DNA of 64,000 bases from Saprospiraceae bacterium (GCA_020628855.1 JAHDEL010000001.1:89044-153043); one strand, 5' to 3'; positions 4,658 to 23,015 are shown, counted from the first letter of the stretch. Translations and numbers: made by a program. Notes: generated by a model from the sequence alone, not told the origin.

Positions 4658-5761
4658 GTGACGAATAATACAATAGAGCATATTGAAGACGAGCAGCAAG
4701 AACAGGCTCTTGCTGAATCCGTGAAGTTGAGAAAGATTATTGTTCCCATACTTCTGGGGGTTTCTGTGGTACTATTTCTAGTATGGCGAACTTTTGATGT
4801 AGAAGCATTTAAGAACCTCACCTGGAATGGAAAAACCTTTTTTTATTTTGGTTTAGCTCTTGGTTGTTATATCATCAGACACATTTTCTATTCCCTCAGA
4901 ATCAAAGAAGTATCAGGTCATGACTTTGGTTTTTGGAAAAGTGTTGAACTCATTACCATTTGGGAATTTGCTTCTACTGTATCTCCAACTTCTTTTGGTG
5001 GGTCTGCAGTCGCAATTTTCCTTCTAGCTCAAGAAAAGATTACCGCTGCTAAGTCAGTTGCAATGGTGCTCTATACTGTCTTAGTTGATACCTTATATTA
5101 TGTTATCACGATTCCTTTGCTTTTCTTCATTTTTGGACCAATAGTATTACGCCCCTTAGCTGACTCCGGTATACAAGGCTATGTGATATCCATGTGGGTG
5201 ATTTATGGGTTTACAATTCTCTACGGTTCATTCATGGCACTAGGTATTTATAAGCCAGAATATGTAGGGAAATTTATTACTTGGCTTGGCAATAGAAGTT
5301 GGATGTCCCGATTCAAAACAGGATTAGCCAAAACTGCGGAAGACATAGAAGTTACCTCGAAAGTTTTAAGAACAAAACGACTAGGCTTTCACCTTAGAAT
5401 TATCCTCTATACTTTCATTGCGTGGACAATGCGATTTCTCGCAGTAGTCTTAGTTATTATAGGCGTTGTTCAGAATCTCAACATCTCGTTTAATGACATC
5501 AGCATTCTTTTTGGTCGAACTGAAATGATGCAAGTTATCACCCAGTTTTCTCCTACCCCTGGAGGAGCAGGTGTTGCTGAAGGAATGTTTGGTGGATTCT
5601 ATGCTGACTATATTCCTAAGGGTGTATCAACCGTCATCGCGTTGATTTGGAGATTCATCACTTACTATCCCTACCTTTTCATCGGAATGTTAGTTATTCC
5701 AAATTGGCTTCGGGGTGTTATGAAGCGGAGAGCAAGTGATAAAGACAATGCTAATTCATAA
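4658..5761 (+). CDS. YbhN/AglD-type flippase-like membrane protein
   Basis: A 367-residue polytopic inner-membrane protein of the lysylphosphatidylglycerol synthase transmembrane-domain family (UPF0104). Seen: about eight helices, an acidic soluble N-terminus rich in Glu and Gln (residues 1-22), and the family motif SPTPGGAGVAEG near residue 300. Family knowledge: the membrane domain of MprF is a lipid flippase; stand-alone members have suspected lipid or glycan transport roles. There is no aminoacyl-transferase domain, so it is not a full MprF. The start is GTG. Its 3' end overlaps the convergent ftcD gene by 11 bases. Confidence 0.85.
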   Translation: MTNNTIEHIEDEQQEQALAESVKLRKIIVPILLGVSVVLFLVWRTFDVEAFKNLTWNGKTFFYFGLALGCYIIRHIFYSLRIKEVSGHDFGFWKSVELITIWEFASTVSPTSFGGSAVAIFLLAQEKITAAKSVAMVLYTVLVDTLYYVITIPLLFFIFGPIVLRPLADSGIQGYVISMWVIYGFTILYGSFMALGIYKPEYVGKFITWLGNRSWMSRFKTGLAKTAEDIEVTSKVLRTKRLGFHLRIILYTFIAWTMRFLAVVLVIIGVVQNLNISFNDISILFGRTEMMQVITQFSPTPGGAGVAEGMFGGFYADYIPKGVSTVIALIWRFITYYPYLFIGMLVIPNWLRGVMKRRASDKDNANS

Positions 5762-7445
5762 TTGTTTGTTCGACTTTATTTAGAATCTCTATTTTCTTTT
5801 CCTGCGAACTTGAAATAAACTTATTGGCTTCTTCGAGGACTCTTGAAGTATAGACTTCATCTTTATATTCTTTGCAATTGATTTTGACATTCAATCCGGC
5901 TCCAATAATGGCCGTATCTATACATGCTACACCTACTCCAATATCAGATATTGACGCTGGATTTCCTTGTACAGCAAGCTCATCTAAAAATTCATATGCT
6001 CCCCAAGCAATACGCATGACTGACAATGGTACTTCTATTGCATTTCTTGTAGCATTGTCTATTGCCTTCTTCCTTGTTGCTTTGTCCTCAGTAGTAGTTT
6101 TTGGCATTCTAATCGCTTCGATGATTTTATTGAAAGCTTCTGTATCCTCATCTACTTTCTCAAGAAGTGCATCCTTTATATCTTGACCTCGCACAGCCAA
6201 CTTGGAGAAGTACTCCCATCTATCATCCCATCCGCGTTTATGCGATGAAAGGTTAGCTACCATTGCCCCAAGAGAAGCTCCTAATGATCCTACATAAGCA
6301 GCCACGCTTCCACCTCCTGGCGCTGGACTTTCACTAGATGTTTCTTCCGCAAATCTGTTTAAACTCATCCGCACCAGTCCTGTATTCTCAGATTGGATGA
6401 CATACTCAATAATCTTCTTGTTTGGATCAAAGGGTCCCAACTCATCAAGGCCCATACTTTTAACAGCTATCTTGATTAGTTCCTGCTCACTTACCCCTAA
6501 AGAGCGTTGTTGCTTAGCTAAAAAATACCTTCCAGCTTCTAACATAACTTGCTTTGGCACAAGACCAACTAACTCGCTACCAGTTACTCTGAGTCCTCTC
6601 TGAGTTGCTGAAGTATTACAGGCTTCAAAAGCTTCATGTAAGCTTGTTTGCTGTATATCTGTAATATTCATGGAGATTTGGGCAACCCCATACTCCGGAA
6701 TGTACCATCCTATTGCTTTGACTCCTTTACAGACTCCTGACTCTCTGATCGGTTCTCCAGCATCATCTCTAAGGATAGCACCGTCTAATCTACCTCCTTC
6801 TCTTTTTATTCTTCCTTTCTCTCTAACATCAAAAGCAATTGCATTTGCTCTTCTGACAGAAGTGGTGTTTAGATTAACATTATAAGCGATCAAAAAATCT
6901 CTGGCCCCAATGACAGTTGCTCCATGTTTTTCTGGTAATTCTGTCGGTCCATAATCTGGTTTCCATTCAGGCTTTTGGATCTTTGCAGCCATACCCTCAT
7001 ATTCTCCCGCCCTAATGGTTGCAAGATTCTTTCTATCTGGACTTTTAGCAGCAGCTTCGTACATAAACACAGGTATTCCTAGCTCTTCACCGACTCTTCG
7101 TCCAAGCTGGTTGGCATATTCGACAGCTTCTTCCATTGTAATACCACTTATGGGTATTAAAGGGCAAACATCTGTTGCACCCATTCTCGGATGTTCTCCA
7201 TGATGATTTCTCATATCAATTAACTCTGCTGCTTTCTTAATTGCCATAAATGCAGCATCAATCACAGCCTCAGGTTCTCCTACAAAGGTGACAACGGTTC
7301 TATTGGTTGCTTTACCTGGATCAACATCTAATAATTGTACACCATCAGCTTCTCTAATTTGATCAGCAATGCTTTGAATGATTGTCGTATTGACACCTTC
7401 ACTAAAATTTGGAACACATTCTATAAGCCTTCTTGTTGTTGTCAT
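5751..7445 (-). CDS. ftcD: Glutamate formimidoyltransferase / formimido-THF cyclodeaminase
   Basis: A bifunctional cytoplasmic enzyme of 564 residues that ends histidine degradation: it moves the formimino group from formiminoglutamate to tetrahydrofolate, then deaminates formimino-THF to methenyl-THF and ammonia. Seen: N-terminal formiminotransferase subdomain beginning LIECVPNFSEG, conserved HHGEHPRMGATDVCPLIPI, a linker near residue 330, and a C-terminal cyclodeaminase domain with SPAPGGGSVAAY near residue 375. The size matches the fused animal-type enzyme, whereas many bacteria have separate proteins. hutH lies 45 kb away in this window; hutU and hutI are not present. A TACATTTG -7 box precedes it. 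Confidence 0.95.
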   Translation of the reverse strand: MTTTRRLIECVPNFSEGVNTTIIQSIADQIREADGVQLLDVDPGKATNRTVVTFVGEPEAVIDAAFMAIKKAAELIDMRNHHGEHPRMGATDVCPLIPISGITMEEAVEYANQLGRRVGEELGIPVFMYEAAAKSPDRKNLATIRAGEYEGMAAKIQKPEWKPDYGPTELPEKHGATVIGARDFLIAYNVNLNTTSVRRANAIAFDVREKGRIKREGGRLDGAILRDDAGEPIRESGVCKGVKAIGWYIPEYGVAQISMNITDIQQTSLHEAFEACNTSATQRGLRVTGSELVGLVPKQVMLEAGRYFLAKQQRSLGVSEQELIKIAVKSMGLDELGPFDPNKKIIEYVIQSENTGLVRMSLNRFAEETSSESPAPGGGSVAAYVGSLGASLGAMVANLSSHKRGWDDRWEYFSKLAVRGQDIKDALLEKVDEDTEAFNKIIEAIRMPKTTTEDKATRKKAIDNATRNAIEVPLSVMRIAWGAYEFLDELAVQGNPASISDIGVGVACIDTAIIGAGLNVKINCKEYKDEVYTSRVLEEANKFISSSQEKKIEILNKVEQTIMN

Positions 7446-7479
7446 AGATATAAACTAAATTTAAAACACAGAGAAAGTG

Positions 7480-7510
7480 CAAATGTACTTTACACCATCG
7501 CTATGACATA
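7480..7510 (-). promoter_or_regulatory. Putative Bacteroidota-type promoter of ftcD
   Basis: On the minus strand TACATTTG (complement of 7480-7487) matches the -7 consensus TAnnTTTG. A TTG lies 23 bases upstream, at the long limit of spacing. It sits 35 bases before the ftcD ATG and overlaps the start of the divergent gene at 7503. This is a pattern match only. Confidence 0.45.
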
Positions 7511-8936
7511 CAATCCTGCCTACATCCTTTTCCTCTTTTTTCTTTTTGCTGCTTATTTGCTACCTGCACAGGAGGTATTAATCTCGCAAGAAGTGAATTT
7601 AAGGAACACAAAAAAGTATGTTATCCTTGGAAAGAAAGAGAACAACATTCAGCTTTTCAGAGATAGAGAATCAGCTCAAGAGGTTGATGTATTCGATGAG
7701 AATCTATCCTACAAATATTCACGAGATGTCAAGCTTGAGGGAGATAACAATAAGATTTTTGCTGTCATCGGCCATGGTAAAAATGAATCTTCTGTCATCT
7801 ATGGCTCCTATCTCAAAGACAGTGTCAGATTAAGACAATATGTCATTAATGGTGATGGTGAAATGAAAGATACCTCAACGTTAATCACTGTTGAAAAAAA
7901 GCAACTGAGAAGTAATCTGAAATATGCATACTCAGAAAACGAACAGCGTCTTCTCCTCTTCAATAATGTAAAGGATGATAAACTGAATCTCTTTATGATC
8001 AACCTTCCCAAAAGAACATTATCATGGGAGGCATCTGTAGTAATAAAGAATAAAAGTGAAGGCTATAGGTTCTTAGATATGGTTGTATCTAATGAAGAAG
8101 ATGTCTTCATACTCTATGAGAAGGCCAACAATAGATATATGGTTGATGATCATGCATTTATGCTGTATCATTTAGGTGAAGATGCTCAATATTTTGTCGA
8201 GTTAACTATGCCAGACTATCTGAGTAAGGACTCTCACCTTACTTATGATGAGCTCAATAACAACATTCTCCTTATAGGACTCTATACACAAGCTAACCGA
8301 TCATCTGCGTTAGGCTATTTTACTTTTTCAAGCAGCCGTAATGGTATTGGGAGTAGTGACGAAATACTCTTTTCTCCTTTTGATGCCAGCTTTATAGAAG
8401 AAGTGAATGGTAAAAGAAAAGGTGTAAATAACACCCTTGATTATTATTTTATCAAAGATGTAATTTTTCAGAAAGATGGAAGTTTTGTTTGGATTGGTGA
8501 AATGTATAAACAGTATGTAAGAAGAGCACCATCCCCATATAACAGAGGTGGAGGCAGTGGTTTACAAGGGTATATTGATCATTATACGGAAGATATCGTC
8601 GTGTTCTCAGTTGATAAAGATGGTTCGGAGTCTTGGCGAAATGTCATTTTCAAAAAACAGTTTTCTCAGGATGATGATGCAACTTATAGCTCCTTCTTCC
8701 TCATGAAGTCTCCATCAAGATTACGATTGTTTTTTAATGATGAAATCAAAAGGTCAAATACTGTTAGTGCTTATCATCTTGATCCTTTAGGCAATATGAA
8801 GAGAGAGACAGTTATGAATACCGAATACGAGAATCTCAAGTTAAGGTTCCAAGATGGTATTCAGATAGCCAATGAAAGTCTCCTATTGGCAAGTGAGGGC
8901 AGTGGAATGCTCAACCTTGTTAAGATCAGCTTGTAA
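7503..8936 (+). CDS. Exported protein of unknown function
   Basis: About 477 residues. The reading frame is open from 7335, but the ATG at 7503 is immediately followed by a clear signal peptide (hydrophobic YILFLFFLFAAYLLPAQ ending in an AQ cleavage site), so I start there; the upstream part overlaps ftcD on the other strand. The mature protein is rich in beta-strand-like alternation and in charged turns (YLKDSVRL, DKDGSESW) and resembles a beta-propeller or other repeat fold without a recognisable motif. No T9SS sorting domain is visible. It is divergent from ftcD and overlaps the convergent lgt-like gene by 11 bases. Function unknown. Confidence 0.75.
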   Translation: MTYNPAYILFLFFLFAAYLLPAQEVLISQEVNLRNTKKYVILGKKENNIQLFRDRESAQEVDVFDENLSYKYSRDVKLEGDNNKIFAVIGHGKNESSVIYGSYLKDSVRLRQYVINGDGEMKDTSTLITVEKKQLRSNLKYAYSENEQRLLLFNNVKDDKLNLFMINLPKRTLSWEASVVIKNKSEGYRFLDMVVSNEEDVFILYEKANNRYMVDDHAFMLYHLGEDAQYFVELTMPDYLSKDSHLTYDELNNNILLIGLYTQANRSSALGYFTFSSSRNGIGSSDEILFSPFDASFIEEVNGKRKGVNNTLDYYFIKDVIFQKDGSFVWIGEMYKQYVRRAPSPYNRGGGSGLQGYIDHYTEDIVVFSVDKDGSESWRNVIFKKQFSQDDDATYSSFFLMKSPSRLRLFFNDEIKRSNTVSAYHLDPLGNMKRETVMNTEYENLKLRFQDGIQIANESLLLASEGSGMLNLVKISL

Positions 8937-10095
8937 CAACCTGGTTATTAATGGGTCTCCCATTCTTTGATGAGAACCAGTAACCAACAATTCCTCCAAT
9001 TACAAAAAAGAAAGCTAACCATTGTGACAAAGACCAGCCCAAATTGAGTAAATCATACTTTTCATTCACCCGAATGCCTTCAATAAAAAATCGCGCTACC
9101 CCTGTAAGCCCTAAATAAATAAAAAAGAGCATTCCTGCTTTTGGAAGGCGCTTGCGCAAATACCAAAGCAATCCAAAGGTTAATACTGCAATCAGAATTT
9201 CATAAATGGGTGTTGGATAGACGGTCTGAGACAGTTTATTACAATAGTACCCTACACAATCCTGAATTTCCACACCTCTTCCTAATACATTTCTAGGGTA
9301 ATCATAGGCCCAAGCCCAGTCTGGAAAAATGAACCAATCAGGCTTTGGGTTAATATTTACTATGCCCCAATCACCATCTCCACTAAATTGACATCCCATC
9401 CTTCCAATGCCATAGCCTAATGCTAATGCAGGAGCAGCTGCATCTGCTAAATGAACAGTTGGTAGATTGATTTTCTTAGTATAAAGTACAAGGACAAGAG
9501 TAGCAAGAATGAGCCCTCCATAGATGGTGAGGCCACTTCCAGAAAAGAGTTGACCCAAAGGATCAGCAGAAAAAGACTCCCAATTTTCTAAAATAGAAAA
9601 CAACCGAGACCCTACGATTCCTGAGACTGCTGCTATTATGATAATATCTCCTACTTTTTGATGAGGCCATTGTCGTATTTCTCCAGCTTCAGAAGCCGCT
9701 GTTCTTCCACGATAATACAGACCCATAATAACTAACAATGCTAGTAAACCCAATAGCATATTTCCTCCGGAAGAAAAGAGTATGCTTGCAGGGTCTCTTT
9801 TGAAGTTATCAAAATTAGAAATGATGAAAGGTATTTTGTAAATCAAAAATCCTCCTATCGCACCATTGATCAATCCATCCTTAATCCATTGGTTTGCTGA
9901 AGATGCTGTTTTCTTAATAATCATTGGCGTCAGCAGACCTTCACCTTCCATTCTTCGAAATTCTTTTGAGACTATCCAAGCACTTACTACAAATACAGTA
10001 GCTAAGAACATTCCAAATGTTTTGAAAATAGAAGTCCAATTATCAGGGGCAGTCCCAAATAAGTCATGAAAAAAATAGGATAAATCTGGATACAT
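8926..10095 (-). CDS. lgt: Prolipoprotein diacylglyceryl transferase-like protein (long form)
   Basis: A 389-residue polytopic membrane protein, about 100 residues longer than classical Lgt. Family role: transfer of diacylglycerol from phosphatidylglycerol to the lipobox cysteine of prolipoproteins. Seen: GYGIGRMGCQFSGDGDWG at residues about 228-244, in the place of the Lgt signature GRxGNFxNxE, then YPTPIYE and FIYLGLTGVARFFIEGIR as in Lgt C-termini. A region at residues 73-128 is repeated at 150-205. The classical Asn after GRxG is Cys here, and the His of the HGG motif is Tyr (IYGG). Enzyme activity is likely but not certain. Confidence 0.82.
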   Translation of the reverse strand: MYPDLSYFFHDLFGTAPDNWTSIFKTFGMFLATVFVVSAWIVSKEFRRMEGEGLLTPMIIKKTASSANQWIKDGLINGAIGGFLIYKIPFIISNFDNFKRDPASILFSSGGNMLLGLLALLVIMGLYYRGRTAASEAGEIRQWPHQKVGDIIIIAAVSGIVGSRLFSILENWESFSADPLGQLFSGSGLTIYGGLILATLVLVLYTKKINLPTVHLADAAAPALALGYGIGRMGCQFSGDGDWGIVNINPKPDWFIFPDWAWAYDYPRNVLGRGVEIQDCVGYYCNKLSQTVYPTPIYEILIAVLTFGLLWYLRKRLPKAGMLFFIYLGLTGVARFFIEGIRVNEKYDLLNLGWSLSQWLAFFFVIGGIVGYWFSSKNGRPINNQVVTS

Positions 10096-10143
10096 AATAA
10101 ATAGTATTTTAGCTTTTAGCTAACCTCAACAATATTACGAACT

Positions 10144-10740
10144 ATGAGTCCAAATGGTAAGATTCTTCTACGAAACTTGTTTTCCTTTCTGCTAAGTGTA
10201 GCATGTGTAACATTGTATGGCCAAGAAGGAGGTGGAATGCATATTTATGCGGGTCCATCACATATGTCTAATGCTTCAACTGCATACACACCAGAAGGAC
10301 AAGTGCATTCTGGTCATCATGTTGGTGGTGACTTCATCCTTTTAGGTGGTGGTATGTACTTTATGTTTGGTGCTCAATATCACAATACTGACCTAATCCC
10401 AACAGATGAACATTCTCTATTTGACATCAACACCAAGCTCATTTGGATTAAACCTCGAGGAGGACTTGGTTTCACTGTCCTCGAATTGACAGATTGGCTC
10501 GCGCTGAGAGCTAAAGCATTAGTAAGTGTGGATATTATGGTACATTCATTAGAAACAGCAGCAATTGCAACTAATCCTCCGCTGAATGACGGGACGGCTT
10601 CTTTAAACCTAGGTGTAGGGGCATCCATAGGTCCTGCAAGAGTTGATGTTGAGTATCATAAAGCTCTGTTCAATGCTTATAATGAACTCAAAGGAACAGG
10701 ATATAATTTTCTACTTGTAAATGTTGGGTTCTTTTTCTAA
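10144..10740 (+). CDS. Probable small outer-membrane beta-barrel protein
   Basis: A 198-residue exported protein. Seen: basic N-terminus and hydrophobic signal peptide (LFSFLLSVACVTLYGQ), alternating glycine/aromatic strands throughout, and a chain ending in FFF, a typical terminal strand of an outer-membrane barrel. The N-terminal third of the mature protein is rich in His and Met (MHIYAGPSHM, VHSGHHVGG), which might bind a metal, but this is inference. No family was recognised. It overlaps the convergent gene by 4 bases (CTAA). Confidence 0.7.
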   Translation: MSPNGKILLRNLFSFLLSVACVTLYGQEGGGMHIYAGPSHMSNASTAYTPEGQVHSGHHVGGDFILLGGGMYFMFGAQYHNTDLIPTDEHSLFDINTKLIWIKPRGGLGFTVLELTDWLALRAKALVSVDIMVHSLETAAIATNPPLNDGTASLNLGVGASIGPARVDVEYHKALFNAYNELKGTGYNFLLVNVGFFF

Positions 10741-11876
10741 CCAATTGCTTGTTTGAGATCTTCCCATAAGTCTTCCTTATTCTCAATTCCAACACTGAGT
10801 CTAATCAGCGAGTCAGTCAATCCGATCTTTTGCCTTTCGTCATAAGGTATGGAAGCATGAGTCATCGAAGCAGGATGTCCTATCAGACTTTCTACACCAC
10901 CTAGGGATTCTGCTAGTGCAAACAAGTGTGTTTTCTCCAAAATTTTATTCGCTTGCTCTTGCGTGTCCTCTTTGAGATCGAAAGAAATCATTGCACCAAA
11001 ATGCTTCATTTGCGATTTTGCTATCGTATGACCTGGATGGTCTTCAAAACCTGGAAAGTACACATTTGCGATTTTATCAAATCCTCGAAGCTTTTCAGCA
11101 AGATAACTTGCGTTTTCGCATGCTCTATCCACTCTCACATGTAAAGTCTTGATTCCTCTAATAGTCAAAAAACAATCTTGAGGCCCTGGAACAGCTCCAC
11201 TTGCATTCTGAATGAAGTAGAATTGGTCTGCAAGCGACTTGTCTTTAACTATTACTGCTCCAAGAACCACATCAGAGTGACCATTAATGTATTTCGTAGC
11301 AGAATGTAACACAATGTCAGCTCCTAAGTCCAAAGGTTGTTGTAAGTAAGGCGAAGCAAATGTATTATCCACACATACCAACATGTTATCTGTTTTATAT
11401 TTTTCAACAATAGATTTAATGTCAATTATTGATAACATTGGATTTGTTGGTGTCTCAATCCATAATAGTTTAGTCTTAGCATGAATTACCTCAGAAATAG
11501 CTTGGTGATCTCTAAAATCTACAAAATGAAACTTGATTCCATATTTCTCAAAAAGCTTTACCATTAAGCGATAAGATCCGCCGTAAAGATCATTAGTCGA
11601 GACTACTTCATCACCAGGGTTCAGCAATTTCATTATTGCATCAAGAGCAGCTAGACCACTCCCAAACGCAATGCCGTGAGTCCCATTTTCTAATGCAGCT
11701 AAATTTTCTTGCAATACGTTTCTTGTTGGATTCTGAGTCCGAGCATATTCAAATCCTTGATGGTCGCCTGGGCTCTTTTGCACATAGGTAGAAGTCTGAA
11801 AAATTGGAGTCATGATCGCACCAGTACTTGGATCTGGAGTTACTCCAGCATGTATTGCCTTAGTTTCAAATTTCAT
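10737..11876 (-). CDS. metB: Cystathionine gamma-synthase/lyase family PLP enzyme
   Basis: About 379 residues, standard length for the Cys/Met metabolism PLP-dependent family. Seen: TKAIHAGVTPDPSTGA at the start, YARTQNPTR, the PLP-lysine region HSATKYINGHSDVV, and C-terminal SLGGVESLIGHPASMTH, all diagnostic. Family knowledge: members make cystathionine from activated homoserine (MetB) or split it (MetC/CTH); the sequence alone does not separate these. The ATG at 11876 is chosen because conserved sequence begins there; the longer frame from 11939 would run through the hup terminator. The gene is just downstream of hup. Confidence 0.9.
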   Translation of the reverse strand: MKFETKAIHAGVTPDPSTGAIMTPIFQTSTYVQKSPGDHQGFEYARTQNPTRNVLQENLAALENGTHGIAFGSGLAALDAIMKLLNPGDEVVSTNDLYGGSYRLMVKLFEKYGIKFHFVDFRDHQAISEVIHAKTKLLWIETPTNPMLSIIDIKSIVEKYKTDNMLVCVDNTFASPYLQQPLDLGADIVLHSATKYINGHSDVVLGAVIVKDKSLADQFYFIQNASGAVPGPQDCFLTIRGIKTLHVRVDRACENASYLAEKLRGFDKIANVYFPGFEDHPGHTIAKSQMKHFGAMISFDLKEDTQEQANKILEKTHLFALAESLGGVESLIGHPASMTHASIPYDERQKIGLTDSLIRLSVGIENKEDLWEDLKQAIG

Positions 11877-19598: not shown

Positions 19599-20786
19599 GT
19601 GAATCTATCCAAATATTTTGGTCCAAGTACTCTTGTAGCGGCTGCTTTTATTGGTCCTGGTACTCTCACGACTTGCACGCTTGCAGGAGTAGAATCAGGT
19701 TATACAATGCTCTGGGCGATGCTTTTTTCGATTTTTGCTACTCTCACTTTACAGGAAATGTCAGCACGCATTGGTTGGAAGACACAAACTGGTCTTGGGG
19801 AAGTTATTCACTCTTTCTTCCAGAACAGGCTATTGAAAAGTATTCTTGTCACGCTTGTTGTTTGTGCCATCATTGTAGGTAATGCAGCATATGAAGCTGG
19901 TAATATTTCTGGTGCTGTTTTAGGTCTTGAATTGTTTAACTTCCATTCTGATATGAGTCCTCTTTTAATTGGTGTTCCTTGTGCTTTCTTATTATGGAAA
20001 GGCAACTATAAACTCATAGAATACCTGCTCATTATTCTTGTGCTGTTAATGTGTATTGCATTCCTTTGCACTGCCTTCTTGGTGCGACCAAATCTAAATG
20101 AAATTCTACATGGTTTTATACCTGCTATTGGAACATTAGATCCATTGCTATTATTGGCATTAATAGGTACTACTGTTGTTCCGTATAATTTATTTTTACA
20201 TGCATCTCTTATATCCAAAAAGCATGATGAACGAAGTAGTCTCAAAGCAATAAGAATAGAGAATGCTGTTTCTATCTTACTTGGAGGAATGATATCAATG
20301 TTGATTATTATTACTGCTGCTGCTACTCGATCTGATAGTTTTTCGATTACCAATGCACAAGACTTAGCTCTACAACTTACTCCAGTATTTGGAGATAAGG
20401 CAAGTTGGGTGTTAGGAGTTGGATTGTTAGCAGCCGGCTTTTCTAGTGCTCTCACTGCACCTCTAGCAGCTAGTTATGCCTTTAAAGGAATCTTCAACAC
20501 TACAGAAAAGAAGTCAGCTCTCTATTATCATCTGACTTGGATTATCATCTTACTCATTGGTGTCACAGTGGCTATTTTAGGATCAAGCTTGATTTCAGTT
20601 ATCAAATTTGCACAAGTTGCTAATGCCATAATCTTACCAATACTTGGATTGATTCTTTGCTACCTCTGCAATCAAACTGCAATTGTAGGAAAACTCACCA
20701 ATACAACATTTCAAAACCTCAAAGCTTACATTGTGATTTTCATAGTTATGGCTTTAGCAGGGAGAACACTATATCTAGTTTTTTGA
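19599..20786 (+). CDS. Nramp-fold transporter linked to 5-oxoprolinase (YcsG-like)
   Basis: A 395-residue inner-membrane protein with about eleven helices and Nramp fold. Seen: N-terminal GPSTLVAAAFIGPGTLTTC aligns with Nramp helix 1, but the metal-binding DPGN is GPGT (residues 19-22). In helix 6 the MPHN motif is VPYN (194-197). Thus the Asp, Asn, Met and His normally at the metal site are not conserved. The stop is one base before pxpA, so it belongs to the 5-oxoprolinase operon, as with ycsG in the Bacillus subtilis ycsF-kipI-kipA region. A role in 5-oxoproline uptake is inference. The start is GTG. Confidence 0.88.
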   Translation: MNLSKYFGPSTLVAAAFIGPGTLTTCTLAGVESGYTMLWAMLFSIFATLTLQEMSARIGWKTQTGLGEVIHSFFQNRLLKSILVTLVVCAIIVGNAAYEAGNISGAVLGLELFNFHSDMSPLLIGVPCAFLLWKGNYKLIEYLLIILVLLMCIAFLCTAFLVRPNLNEILHGFIPAIGTLDPLLLLALIGTTVVPYNLFLHASLISKKHDERSSLKAIRIENAVSILLGGMISMLIIITAAATRSDSFSITNAQDLALQLTPVFGDKASWVLGVGLLAAGFSSALTAPLAASYAFKGIFNTTEKKSALYYHLTWIIILLIGVTVAILGSSLISVIKFAQVANAIILPILGLILCYLCNQTAIVGKLTNTTFQNLKAYIVIFIVMALAGRTLYLVF

Positions 20787-20787
20787 G

Positions 20788-21531
20788 ATGAAACGACAGG
20801 TCATAGATATTAACGCTGATGTGGGTGAAGGATTTGATGATGCTTCCATATATAGATGTATTTCATCGTGTAACATAGCTTGTGGAGGACATGCTGGGTC
20901 GACTACTTCAATGCTATTCGCGATTCGACATGCTAAGACATACAATGTTGCAATAGGTGCTCATCCATCATATCCAGACAAAGAAAATTTTGGTAGAAAG
21001 TATCTAGATATCCCCTTGAAAGACCTCTGTGATAGTTTGATTGACCAAATAAGTACACTTCGCAGACTATGTGAACAAGAACATATGTCCCTTCATCATA
21101 TCAAGTTTCATGGTGCACTCTATCATGCAATGAATACAAATCCAGATCTAACTCTTGCCATTTTGGAGGCTTGTAAACAGCAGTTTTCAGCCTGTGGTAT
21201 TTATGCTATGTCTAACTCCATCGTAAGCATTATTGCTGAAGATCTCGGTATACAGTATGCGAATGAAGTATTTGCAGATCGATCTTATAAAACACAAACA
21301 GAGCTAGTAAGCAGAAAAAATGAAAATGCTCTTATCAAAAGCTCAAAAGCAGCAGAACAACACCTCTTCAACCTCTTGAATGATTGCATTCGAACTGTTG
21401 ATGGAGATATATTTCCTGTACAATCCCAAACTCTATGCATCCACAGTGACACACCTTGGGCAGTCACACTAAGTCATCAAGTGTTTTCAACAATACAAAA
21501 AAATGGAATCAAGATCTCTCCTCCTTGGTAA
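20788..21531 (+). CDS. pxpA: 5-oxoprolinase subunit A (LamB/YcsF family)
   Basis: A 247-residue cytoplasmic protein. Seen: DINADVGEGFDD at the N-terminus, NIACGGHAGS, IGAHPSYPDKENFGRKY, VKFHGALY-like IKFHGALYH, and EVFADRSY, all characteristic of the LamB/YcsF family. Family knowledge: PxpA works with PxpB and PxpC in ATP-dependent hydrolysis of 5-oxoproline (pyroglutamate) to glutamate. The gene begins one base after the Nramp-like gene and overlaps pxpB by 29 bases. Confidence 0.95.
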   Translation: MKRQVIDINADVGEGFDDASIYRCISSCNIACGGHAGSTTSMLFAIRHAKTYNVAIGAHPSYPDKENFGRKYLDIPLKDLCDSLIDQISTLRRLCEQEHMSLHHIKFHGALYHAMNTNPDLTLAILEACKQQFSACGIYAMSNSIVSIIAEDLGIQYANEVFADRSYKTQTELVSRKNENALIKSSKAAEQHLFNLLNDCIRTVDGDIFPVQSQTLCIHSDTPWAVTLSHQVFSTIQKNGIKISPPW

Positions 21532-22198
21532 TGTTATTGTGGAGGTCAAAAACTTCAAAGACGAATTTGTCTTATTGACATCCGACAGCAATCCGCGTGA
21601 ACTCCGCCAAATAGGAAGAAGTCTATTTGAAGCTCAGTTAGATGCTATTAAGGATGTAGTTGTGAGTGAAATGGAGATTTGTATAATTCCAGAATTGGGT
21701 ATTGGTTTTGATACATTATTATTAAGTATTGGTACCATTGAGCTTGACAAAGTATCGGTTACCAATACATTATTTCTCCCAGTTTGTTTTGACCTTGGAA
21801 GGGATTGGAAGACGCTAGAAGAGCAGAGTAATATGACAAGACAGTCAATCATTGGTCTATTATCTCAATCTGAATTTGAACTAAGTCATTTAGGGTTTAT
21901 GCCTGGATTTCTCTATTTAACAGGAATGCCAGAAAGTTTGCATTGCGAACGCCTATCGACGCCACGAACTCTAGTAGAGTCAGGAACAGTAGCGATTGGA
22001 GGAAAATATTTGGGAGTCTATGGTTTGCAAAGCCCAGGTGGTTGGCATAGCATTGGAGCTACACCCGTAAAAACATATTACTCTCAGACCCTACCTTCTT
22101 ATCATCCTGGAAGTATTATAAAAATTGTTTCAATTTCATTGGAGACATTCGAACTTCTGAAAGCTAAGGATCTCTATATTCACGAATATCATGGGTAA
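21503..22198 (+). CDS. pxpB: 5-oxoprolinase subunit B (KipI-like)
   Basis: A 231-residue protein of the biotin-dependent carboxyltransferase/allophanate hydrolase subunit 1 family. Seen: HLGFMPGFLYLTGMPE, the STPRTLVESGTVAIGGKYLGVYG segment, and SPGGWHSIGATP, which are the conserved core. PxpB in other bacteria is the partner of PxpC in the ATP-using part of 5-oxoprolinase. The ATG lies inside the end of pxpA (29-base overlap) and the gene overlaps pxpC by 8 bases, so translation is coupled. Confidence 0.93.
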   Translation: MESRSLLLGNVIVEVKNFKDEFVLLTSDSNPRELRQIGRSLFEAQLDAIKDVVVSEMEICIIPELGIGFDTLLLSIGTIELDKVSVTNTLFLPVCFDLGRDWKTLEEQSNMTRQSIIGLLSQSEFELSHLGFMPGFLYLTGMPESLHCERLSTPRTLVESGTVAIGGKYLGVYGLQSPGGWHSIGATPVKTYYSQTLPSYHPGSIIKIVSISLETFELLKAKDLYIHEYHG

Positions 22199-23015
22199 TT
22201 GCACAGTAATTAAACCAGGTATGTACACGATATTGGTGCAAGCATCAAATAATCGTGCAAGCTACTATGCATTTCCTCAGTCGGGACCTATGGACTTTAA
22301 GTCTTATAAAATGGCTAACCTGGTGGTCGGTAATCCTGTCCAATCTCCAGCACTAGAATGTACCGGAACTGCCCCAACTATTCGATTCAATACTCAGGCA
22401 ACCTTAGCAGTTTCTGGAGCAGATATGCAATGGACAATCAATGGTAAAACAATACCAATGCATACATCTATACATTGTAAGAAAGATGACATTCTGTCTG
22501 GAAAAAATACTATTTACGGATTCAGAAGTTACATAGCAATTAGAGGTAATAGTTTAGAATCTATGGTCAGCAAACATGCAGTTTATCCTACACCTATCAA
22601 ACCCAAAGAAATTTTGAGCTGGCAAGACTCTGAGACTTCACATCCACATGTTTCTTTACATCCAATTACAATTAAGAAGACCATTTCATTTCTTGCTGGA
22701 CCAGAATACTCTTTTTTGGATTTGAATTCACAATCCGTATTTTCCACCGAGGAGTATGAAATAACCTCAAAAAGTAATCGCATCGGAGCTAGACTTGATG
22801 GTCCAATATTACGAGCAACCAAACAGCTAGTAACAAGCCGTCCTATTATCCCAGGGATTATACAATTACCTCCCGACGGAAAGCCTATCGTCTGTCTCCA
22901 AGATTGTCAAACAACAGGTGGATATCCAAGAATTGGTTTCATCACAAGGGAACAGCTCGACTACTTTAATCAGATTCCGCATCGTCAAAAAGTCATGTTT
23001 AAACACATAGACTAG
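22191..23015 (+). CDS. pxpC: 5-oxoprolinase subunit C (KipA-like)
   Basis: A 274-residue protein of the carboxyltransferase/allophanate hydrolase subunit 2 family. Seen: FPQSGPMDFKSYKMANLVVGN, ALECTGTAP and AVSGADM near the N-terminus, SNRIGARLDG, and GIIQLPPDGKPIVCLQDCQTTGGYPRIG at the C-terminus, typical of PxpC/KipA. The usual VQDxGR motif after the first strand reads VQASNN. Length is slightly shorter than many homologues (about 310). Last gene of the operon. Confidence 0.93.
   Translation: MGNCTVIKPGMYTILVQASNNRASYYAFPQSGPMDFKSYKMANLVVGNPVQSPALECTGTAPTIRFNTQATLAVSGADMQWTINGKTIPMHTSIHCKKDDILSGKNTIYGFRSYIAIRGNSLESMVSKHAVYPTPIKPKEILSWQDSETSHPHVSLHPITIKKTISFLAGPEYSFLDLNSQSVFSTEEYEITSKSNRIGARLDGPILRATKQLVTSRPIIPGIIQLPPDGKPIVCLQDCQTTGGYPRIGFITREQLDYFNQIPHRQKVMFKHID

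Follow-up and report, generated by a model that had tools for sequence, protein, structure and literature searches.

An Nramp-fold protein without the metal site, encoded beside 5-oxoprolinase genes, as a probable importer of 5-oxoproline

What does an Nramp-fold protein carry when every residue that its canonical relatives use to bind metal has been replaced? The question is raised by a gene in a 64,000-nucleotide stretch of DNA from a Saprospiraceae bacterium (GCA_020628855.1 JAHDEL010000001.1:89044-153043; hereafter the window), which encodes a 395-residue carrier of the Nramp family (PF01566; 19599..20786, plus strand, GTG start) and heads a set of genes for the 5-oxoprolinase PxpABC. From its sequence and gene linkage, this protein is probably an importer of 5-oxoproline (pyroglutamate), and possibly of close cyclic amide acids, that supplies PxpABC and acts as a LeuT-fold secondary carrier within the Nramp superfamily. 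We favor import of 5-oxoproline rather than metal because the metal ligands have been lost and because relatives of the protein are found, among the sampled genomes, only in those that carry one of two oxoprolinase-type enzymes. An initial annotation of the locus had suggested a family of small-acid rather than metal carriers, a proposal to which the genomic linkage described here lends support.

The arrangement of the locus is as that annotation described it. The stop codon of the Nramp-like gene (TGA, 20784-20786) is followed by a single base (g) and then by the ATG of pxpA (subunit A, LamB/YcsF; 20788..21531), with pxpB (subunit B; 21503..22198) and pxpC (subunit C; 22191..23015) downstream on the same plus strand, pxpA overlapping pxpB by 29 bases and pxpB overlapping pxpC by 8. 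All three subunits are thus present in the order A-B-C, and their matches to PF03746 (238.6 bits), PF02682 (121.6 bits) and PF02626 (197.1 bits) lie far above the Pfam cut-offs; at the level of NCBIfam equivalogs, pxpA exceeds the cut-off of NF003814, and pxpB and pxpC fall under theirs. We infer that the Nramp-like gene is co-transcribed with pxpABC. Scans for promoters and terminators at the locus returned nothing better than shuffled sequence.

Membership of the protein in the Nramp family is clear from a PF01566 match of 247.9 bits (gathering cut-off 29.8) that spans residues 24-369 and hence the whole fold, and helix 1 aligns without gaps with that of solved Nramps, as had been claimed. 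The broad model NF037982, "Nramp family divalent metal transporter", is also passed (79.2 against 50 bits), whereas the protein scores well below the thresholds of the canonical MntH model (148.7 against 430 bits) and the nramp subfamily model (100.2 against 272.5 bits) of NCBIfam. A genome-wide search found it to be the sole PF01566 protein of its genome, and a scan of genome contigs with the window protein alone as query returned one locus only.

An alignment with canonical Nramps, NRMT-like proteins and relatives locates the substitutions. In transmembrane segment 1 (TM1), GPGT (residues 19-22; 19653..19664) replaces DPGN, with G19 in place of Asp and T22 in place of Asn; in TM3, N102 of the GN motif (residues 101-102; 19899..19904) stands where canonical Nramps have a conserved Glu; in TM6, GTTVVPYN (residues 190-197; 20166..20189) carries T191, V194 and Y196 for Ala, Met and His, giving VPYN for MPHN; and in TM10, N342 (20622..20624), invariant in the clade, occupies a position that is Leu in canonical Nramps, all four features lying on the plus strand. 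The canonical DPGN/MPH ligands are therefore missing, with all five metal ligands lost in addition to the TM3 Glu, and the reported change of the Asp, Asn, Met and His is borne out. Among 79 homologues of the superclade defined below, no variation is seen at G19, P20, G21, N102, T191, T192, V194, Y196, N197, Q339 or N342, and T22 is retained in 77 and replaced by Ser in two; TM6 reads VPYN, VTYN or VGYN according to subclade. The substitutions are not attributable to chance, because they are invariant in these homologues and because the close junction with pxpA recurs in 33 of 36 pxp-linked loci. Judged from these comparisons, the substituted site is a fixed alternative site and not a decayed one. 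An AlphaFold2 model of the window protein, computed from a two-row alignment with one relative, reached a predicted local distance difference test score of 36.5 and a predicted template-modeling score of 0.28 and was not used for the site.

The sample in which linkage was assessed comprised 395 Bacteroidota genomes and a set of plasmid records, so that its scope is almost entirely Bacteroidota plus plasmids. A superclade protein occurs in 78 of the 395 genomes, the superclade being delimited by a gap in score (137.6 bits against 122.4 bits for canonical and NRMT-like proteins) at a cut set after adjacency had been seen and before hyuB was sought; three of the 78 genomes (G008, G058 and G380) were counted by score alone, their loci not having been fetched. 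Three subgroups can be distinguished among the fetched members: the window protein belongs to the first, the core clade; matches of the second, a sister clade, begin at about residue 12; and the third is a VTYN clade. In the core clade (43 loci, made up of the window, L032 and 41 further fetched loci), pxpA, pxpB and pxpC adjoin the transporter gene on the same strand in 36 loci from five Bacteroidota families, and in 33 of these pxpA starts no more than about 12 bases from the transporter stop. One further core member (L142, in genome G282) has instead an adjoining gene on the opposite strand for a fused HyuAB of 1253 amino acids. HyuA-HyuB is the other oxoprolinase-type ATP-dependent enzyme family and is not homologous to PxpABC. 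In the second clade, hyuA and hyuB adjoin the transporter gene in 16 of 22 loci (in two of them only hyuB lies within the stretch examined), with gene overlaps of 4-7 bases in four. The same order, hyuA then hyuB directly 3′ of the Nramp gene, is found in five of six haloarchaeal plasmid homologues (40-43% identity; the five from Haloferax, Haloarcula, Haladaptatus, Halorussus and Halocatena), the Natrononativus homologue being the exception; a Pseudoalteromonas homologue likewise has no hyuA-hyuB directly after it. Among canonical, NRMT-like and FGPG-type Nramp loci, none of 15 lies near pxp or hyu genes, and the idea that pxp adjacency is ordinary for any Nramp was rejected on that count.

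Linkage extends from neighborhoods to whole genomes. When pxpA (PF03746) and hyuB (PF02538) were sought across the same 395 genomes, each of the 78 superclade genomes proved to have a single enzyme type (pxpA in 49, hyuB in 29, both in none and neither in none), against either enzyme in 52 of the 317 genomes without a superclade protein, two of which have both (Fisher 8e-48, uncorrected for kinship). Homologues lying mostly away from pxp genes, which would have spoken against a small-acid carrier, are thus not what was observed, as pxpABC or hyuAB is adjacent or co-occurring in every one of the 78. For the core clade, pxpA is present in 42 of 43 genomes with a member and 31 of 352 without (Fisher 1.8e-35, uncorrected for kinship), the odd core genome being G282 with its fused HyuAB. 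Within single families the contrast persists, at 13 of 13 core-clade genomes against 1 of 27 others in family f5 and 23 of 24 against 1 of 15 in family f23, the counts without the clade being partial samples taken by hand from the genomes listed. In the second clade, the six loci that lack adjacent hyuAB are exactly those of the six genomes with pxpA, and the 16 hyuAB genomes have no pxpA (p 1.3e-5); in the VTYN clade, hyuB is present in 10 of 11 genomes and pxpA in the eleventh. Two unrelated oxoprolinase-type enzymes therefore replace each other behind the same transporter.

Several of these loci have further neighbors of note. Two core loci without adjacent pxp genes (L067, 9553-11289; L068, 7316-9049) have a gene for gamma-glutamyltransferase, another enzyme of the gamma-glutamyl/5-oxoproline cycle, 0.1-2.4 kb downstream. 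Haloarchaeal Nramp-hyuA-hyuB operons have a CopG-type regulator gene upstream and end in a gene resembling arylmalonate decarboxylase (Amdase)/Asp-Glu racemase (L169, 9864-10625; L172, 9923-10669; L170, 9848-10540). A gene pair resembling 2-oxoacid:ferredoxin oxidoreductase stands beside 7 of 11 VTYN-clade Nramp genes (L081, 2999-7179, and similar loci), along with a tatC-like gene, these neighbors being named from sequence without a family search. A further PF01566 group (L110, 5871-7176; L118) has FGP in TM1, lacks a Tyr in TM6 and is not flanked by pxp or hyu genes, and L110 adjoins an epimerase-like gene and an unassigned open reading frame of 351 amino acids. In a pxp cluster on an Eleftheria terrae plasmid (L162, 3236-9888), DUF969-DUF979 takes the position of the transporter and a pyroglutamyl-peptidase gene stands at the end; DUF969-DUF979 is a candidate for another type of 5-oxoproline carrier.

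In the transport cycle that we propose, 5-oxoproline would enter the outward-open cavity, where its carboxylate would be held by backbone amides of the unwound GPG segment of TM1 and its lactam ring amide by N102, Y196, T191/T192 and N342. GxG segments hold carboxylates by backbone amides in amino-acid carriers of the APC superfamily. The carrier would then switch and release its substrate to PxpABC (or HyuAB) for conversion to glutamate. Transport would be inward, with an ion gradient as its driving force; the window protein no longer has the acidic TM3 residue that belongs to the canonical proton path.

Uptake of 5-oxoproline by Nramp-family proteins has already been published, whereas the separate lineage and the linkage to two enzymes appear to be new within the limits of our checks. 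PxpT of Corynebacterium glutamicum is reported to be essential for growth on 5-oxoproline (PMC13274462), and YcsG of Bacillus subtilis to be needed for its use as a nitrogen source (Niehaus 2017, as cited in PMC13274462); both are, like the window protein, PF01566 proteins of a pxp operon. The two were represented in our comparisons by plasmid-borne relatives encoded beside pxp genes, from L. fermentum (L155), Klebsiella (L161), L. plantarum (L165), Moraxella (L167) and A. baumannii (L164), with L155, L161 and L164 taken to represent YcsG from their operon context, from the connection that PMC10448178 makes of the A. baumannii operon with ycsG, and from the joint naming of MumT and MntG in PMC12873925. 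Seven YcsG-type proteins compared form a clade of their own with 100% support. They share G19, P20, G21, G101, N102, T192, Y196 and N342 with the window clade, so that TM1 GPG and TM3 GN are common to both lineages, but they differ from the window protein in TM6 (GGTVGGY rather than GTTVVPYN), in having GPGF rather than GPGT, and in overall sequence (23% identity for L155 and 25% for L161). The window protein lacks the GPGF/GGTVGGY signature, falls outside the YcsG-type clade and was rejected as a YcsG orthologue. The parallel with B. subtilis ycsG drawn in the initial annotation is thus to a different lineage, one that has GPG in common with the window protein. A joint clade of the window lineage and YcsG is neither shown nor rejected (approximately unbiased test, p 0.35); as the sequences stand, either two lineages would have converged on one site and one operon, or long branches would be obscuring a deep relationship between them.

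Several observations weigh against import of 5-oxoproline by the window protein. Its closest relative (L032, 58% identity) has no pxp gene downstream, its genome encoding pxpA elsewhere, and the VTYN clade has neither pxp nor hyu genes adjacent. Others concern the identity of the substrate. The HyuAB-type family includes caprolactamase and N-methylhydantoinase, the family models did not narrow the specificity of the HyuAB proteins, and some haloarchaeal operons add the Amdase/Asp-Glu racemase-like gene. Together with the differences in TM6 between subclades, these points would fit a broader or different cyclic amide substrate (such as hydantoin, N-methylhydantoin or another lactam acid), 5-oxoproline being then one of several substrates or not the principal one, with preferences that differ among subclades. 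We regard this as unlikely, since the partner of the core clade, PxpABC, is a 5-oxoprolinase by published work, the remaining residues of the site are invariant across subclades, and the two enzyme types substitute for each other with no overlap.

The remaining objections concern metal, and the published claims of Mn import by YcsG-type proteins are the chief evidence against the reading preferred here. YcsG has been renamed MntG and described as an Mn importer (PMC10448178), and MumT of A. baumannii, encoded in what was called a "urea" operon, has likewise been described as importing Mn (PMC5050338), claims that rest on overexpression, deletion and inductively coupled plasma mass spectrometry; the YcsG-type proteins so described have GPG, N102 and Y196 in common with proteins of the window clade. 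The A. baumannii locus L164, which matches the published mum operon, has a gene for an Nramp with the GPGF/GGTVGGY signature and, after it, PxpA-like, hydro-lyase-like, 527-amino-acid PxpB/PxpC fusion and biotin carboxylase genes (5001-11205); it appears from gene content to be a pxp-type operon, its "urea amidolyase" genes looking like 5-oxoprolinase genes, and the same site signature is present, yet MumT is reported to import Mn. In addition, a search of the window genome (G000) found no second Nramp, no ZIP and no FeoB, and a single ABC-3 permease (C51) was the sole metal permease found, so that a metal role for the window protein would not be redundant. Metal uptake in this genome may be unusual or may proceed through other families.

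On such grounds the protein might instead import divalent metal through a degenerate site and so provide Mn or Mg for an oxoprolinase that depends on ATP and metal, a role already suggested for MntG/YcsG and MumT. We consider this quite unlikely. The Asp, Asn, Met, His and TM3 Glu are invariantly replaced in the 79 homologues, whereas NRMT, which moves Mg2+, retains the TM1 Asp; an ABC-3 permease is available for metal; the YcsG phenotypes come from genetics and not from a purified carrier; and the constant presence of one enzyme type, never of both, is more readily explained by a substrate than by a metal cofactor, for which many other enzymes also have a need. No report of metal transport by the window clade was found in the literature searched, the Mn claims concerning the separate YcsG/MumT lineage. 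A safety-valve role beside the degrading enzyme, in which surplus 5-oxoproline or glutamate would be exported, is very improbable: cells do generate 5-oxoproline spontaneously (PMC13274462), and direction cannot be read from gene linkage, but PxpT and YcsG, whose relatives have a similar site signature, are reported in the same paper to be needed for use of external 5-oxoproline, and an exporter beside a catabolic enzyme would waste its substrate.

With import of 5-oxoproline as the preferred reading, the protein can be placed among other known Nramp relatives. Canonical Nramp/MntH proteins (clades A-C) belong to the same family and align with it over their whole length, but they keep DPGN/MPHN and the TM3 Glu and have no pxp or hyu linkage. 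NRMT Mg2+ transporters (EleNRMT) likewise are PF01566 proteins outside the canonical Nramps and share T191, T192, Q339 and N342, but they keep the TM1 Asp (DAGG) and have W at the position of Y196; the NRMT pattern of DxxG in TM1 and TxxA/T in TM6 is replaced in the window protein by GxxT and TxxV, and in the tree NRMT-like proteins group apart as a clade of their own. A published signature that the window clade matches is that of the "orphan" Slc11 outgroup of Cellier, described in PMC9606685 and PMC10606218 by V-Y in helix 6, Y-N in helix 3 and a change of Ala to Thr; compared by motif text, these substitutions agree residue for residue with the window clade (V194, Y196, N102, and Y98, which is F in some members). 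The passages of PMC9606685, PMC10606218 and PMC12873925 that treat this and related groups assign them no function and do not mention oxoprolinases. A 2026 Nramp phylogeny (Ray et al.; PMC12873925) places MntG in "G-motif 3" and describes Nramp-related groups other than the NRMT-like one as entirely uncharacterized. The closest named relative found for the window protein is from a Saprospiraceae metagenome-assembled genome, and our literature search found no paper that gives a function to this lineage. By gene linkage, that is, by adjoining PxpABC, the protein would fall in a class of 5-oxoproline transporters.

Proteins of the window type are currently annotated as divalent metal transporters, and the linkage gives a testable substrate to an uncharacterized group that lies near a medically important family of metal transporters. 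It also provides a means of deciding between Mn and 5-oxoproline as the cargo of YcsG/MntG/MumT, which is disputed, and has a bearing on a possible origin of Nramps among organic-acid carriers. Tentatively, and with more doubt than we attach to the window protein itself, we suggest that the non-metal sister lineage or lineages of Nramps may be carriers of 5-oxoproline and cyclic amides that share a GPG/GN/Y/N site and work with whichever of the two oxoprolinases a given genome encodes, that the Mn labels of MntG and MumT may reflect secondary effects, and that the Nramp metal site may have arisen within a superfamily of small-acid carriers and not the other way round.

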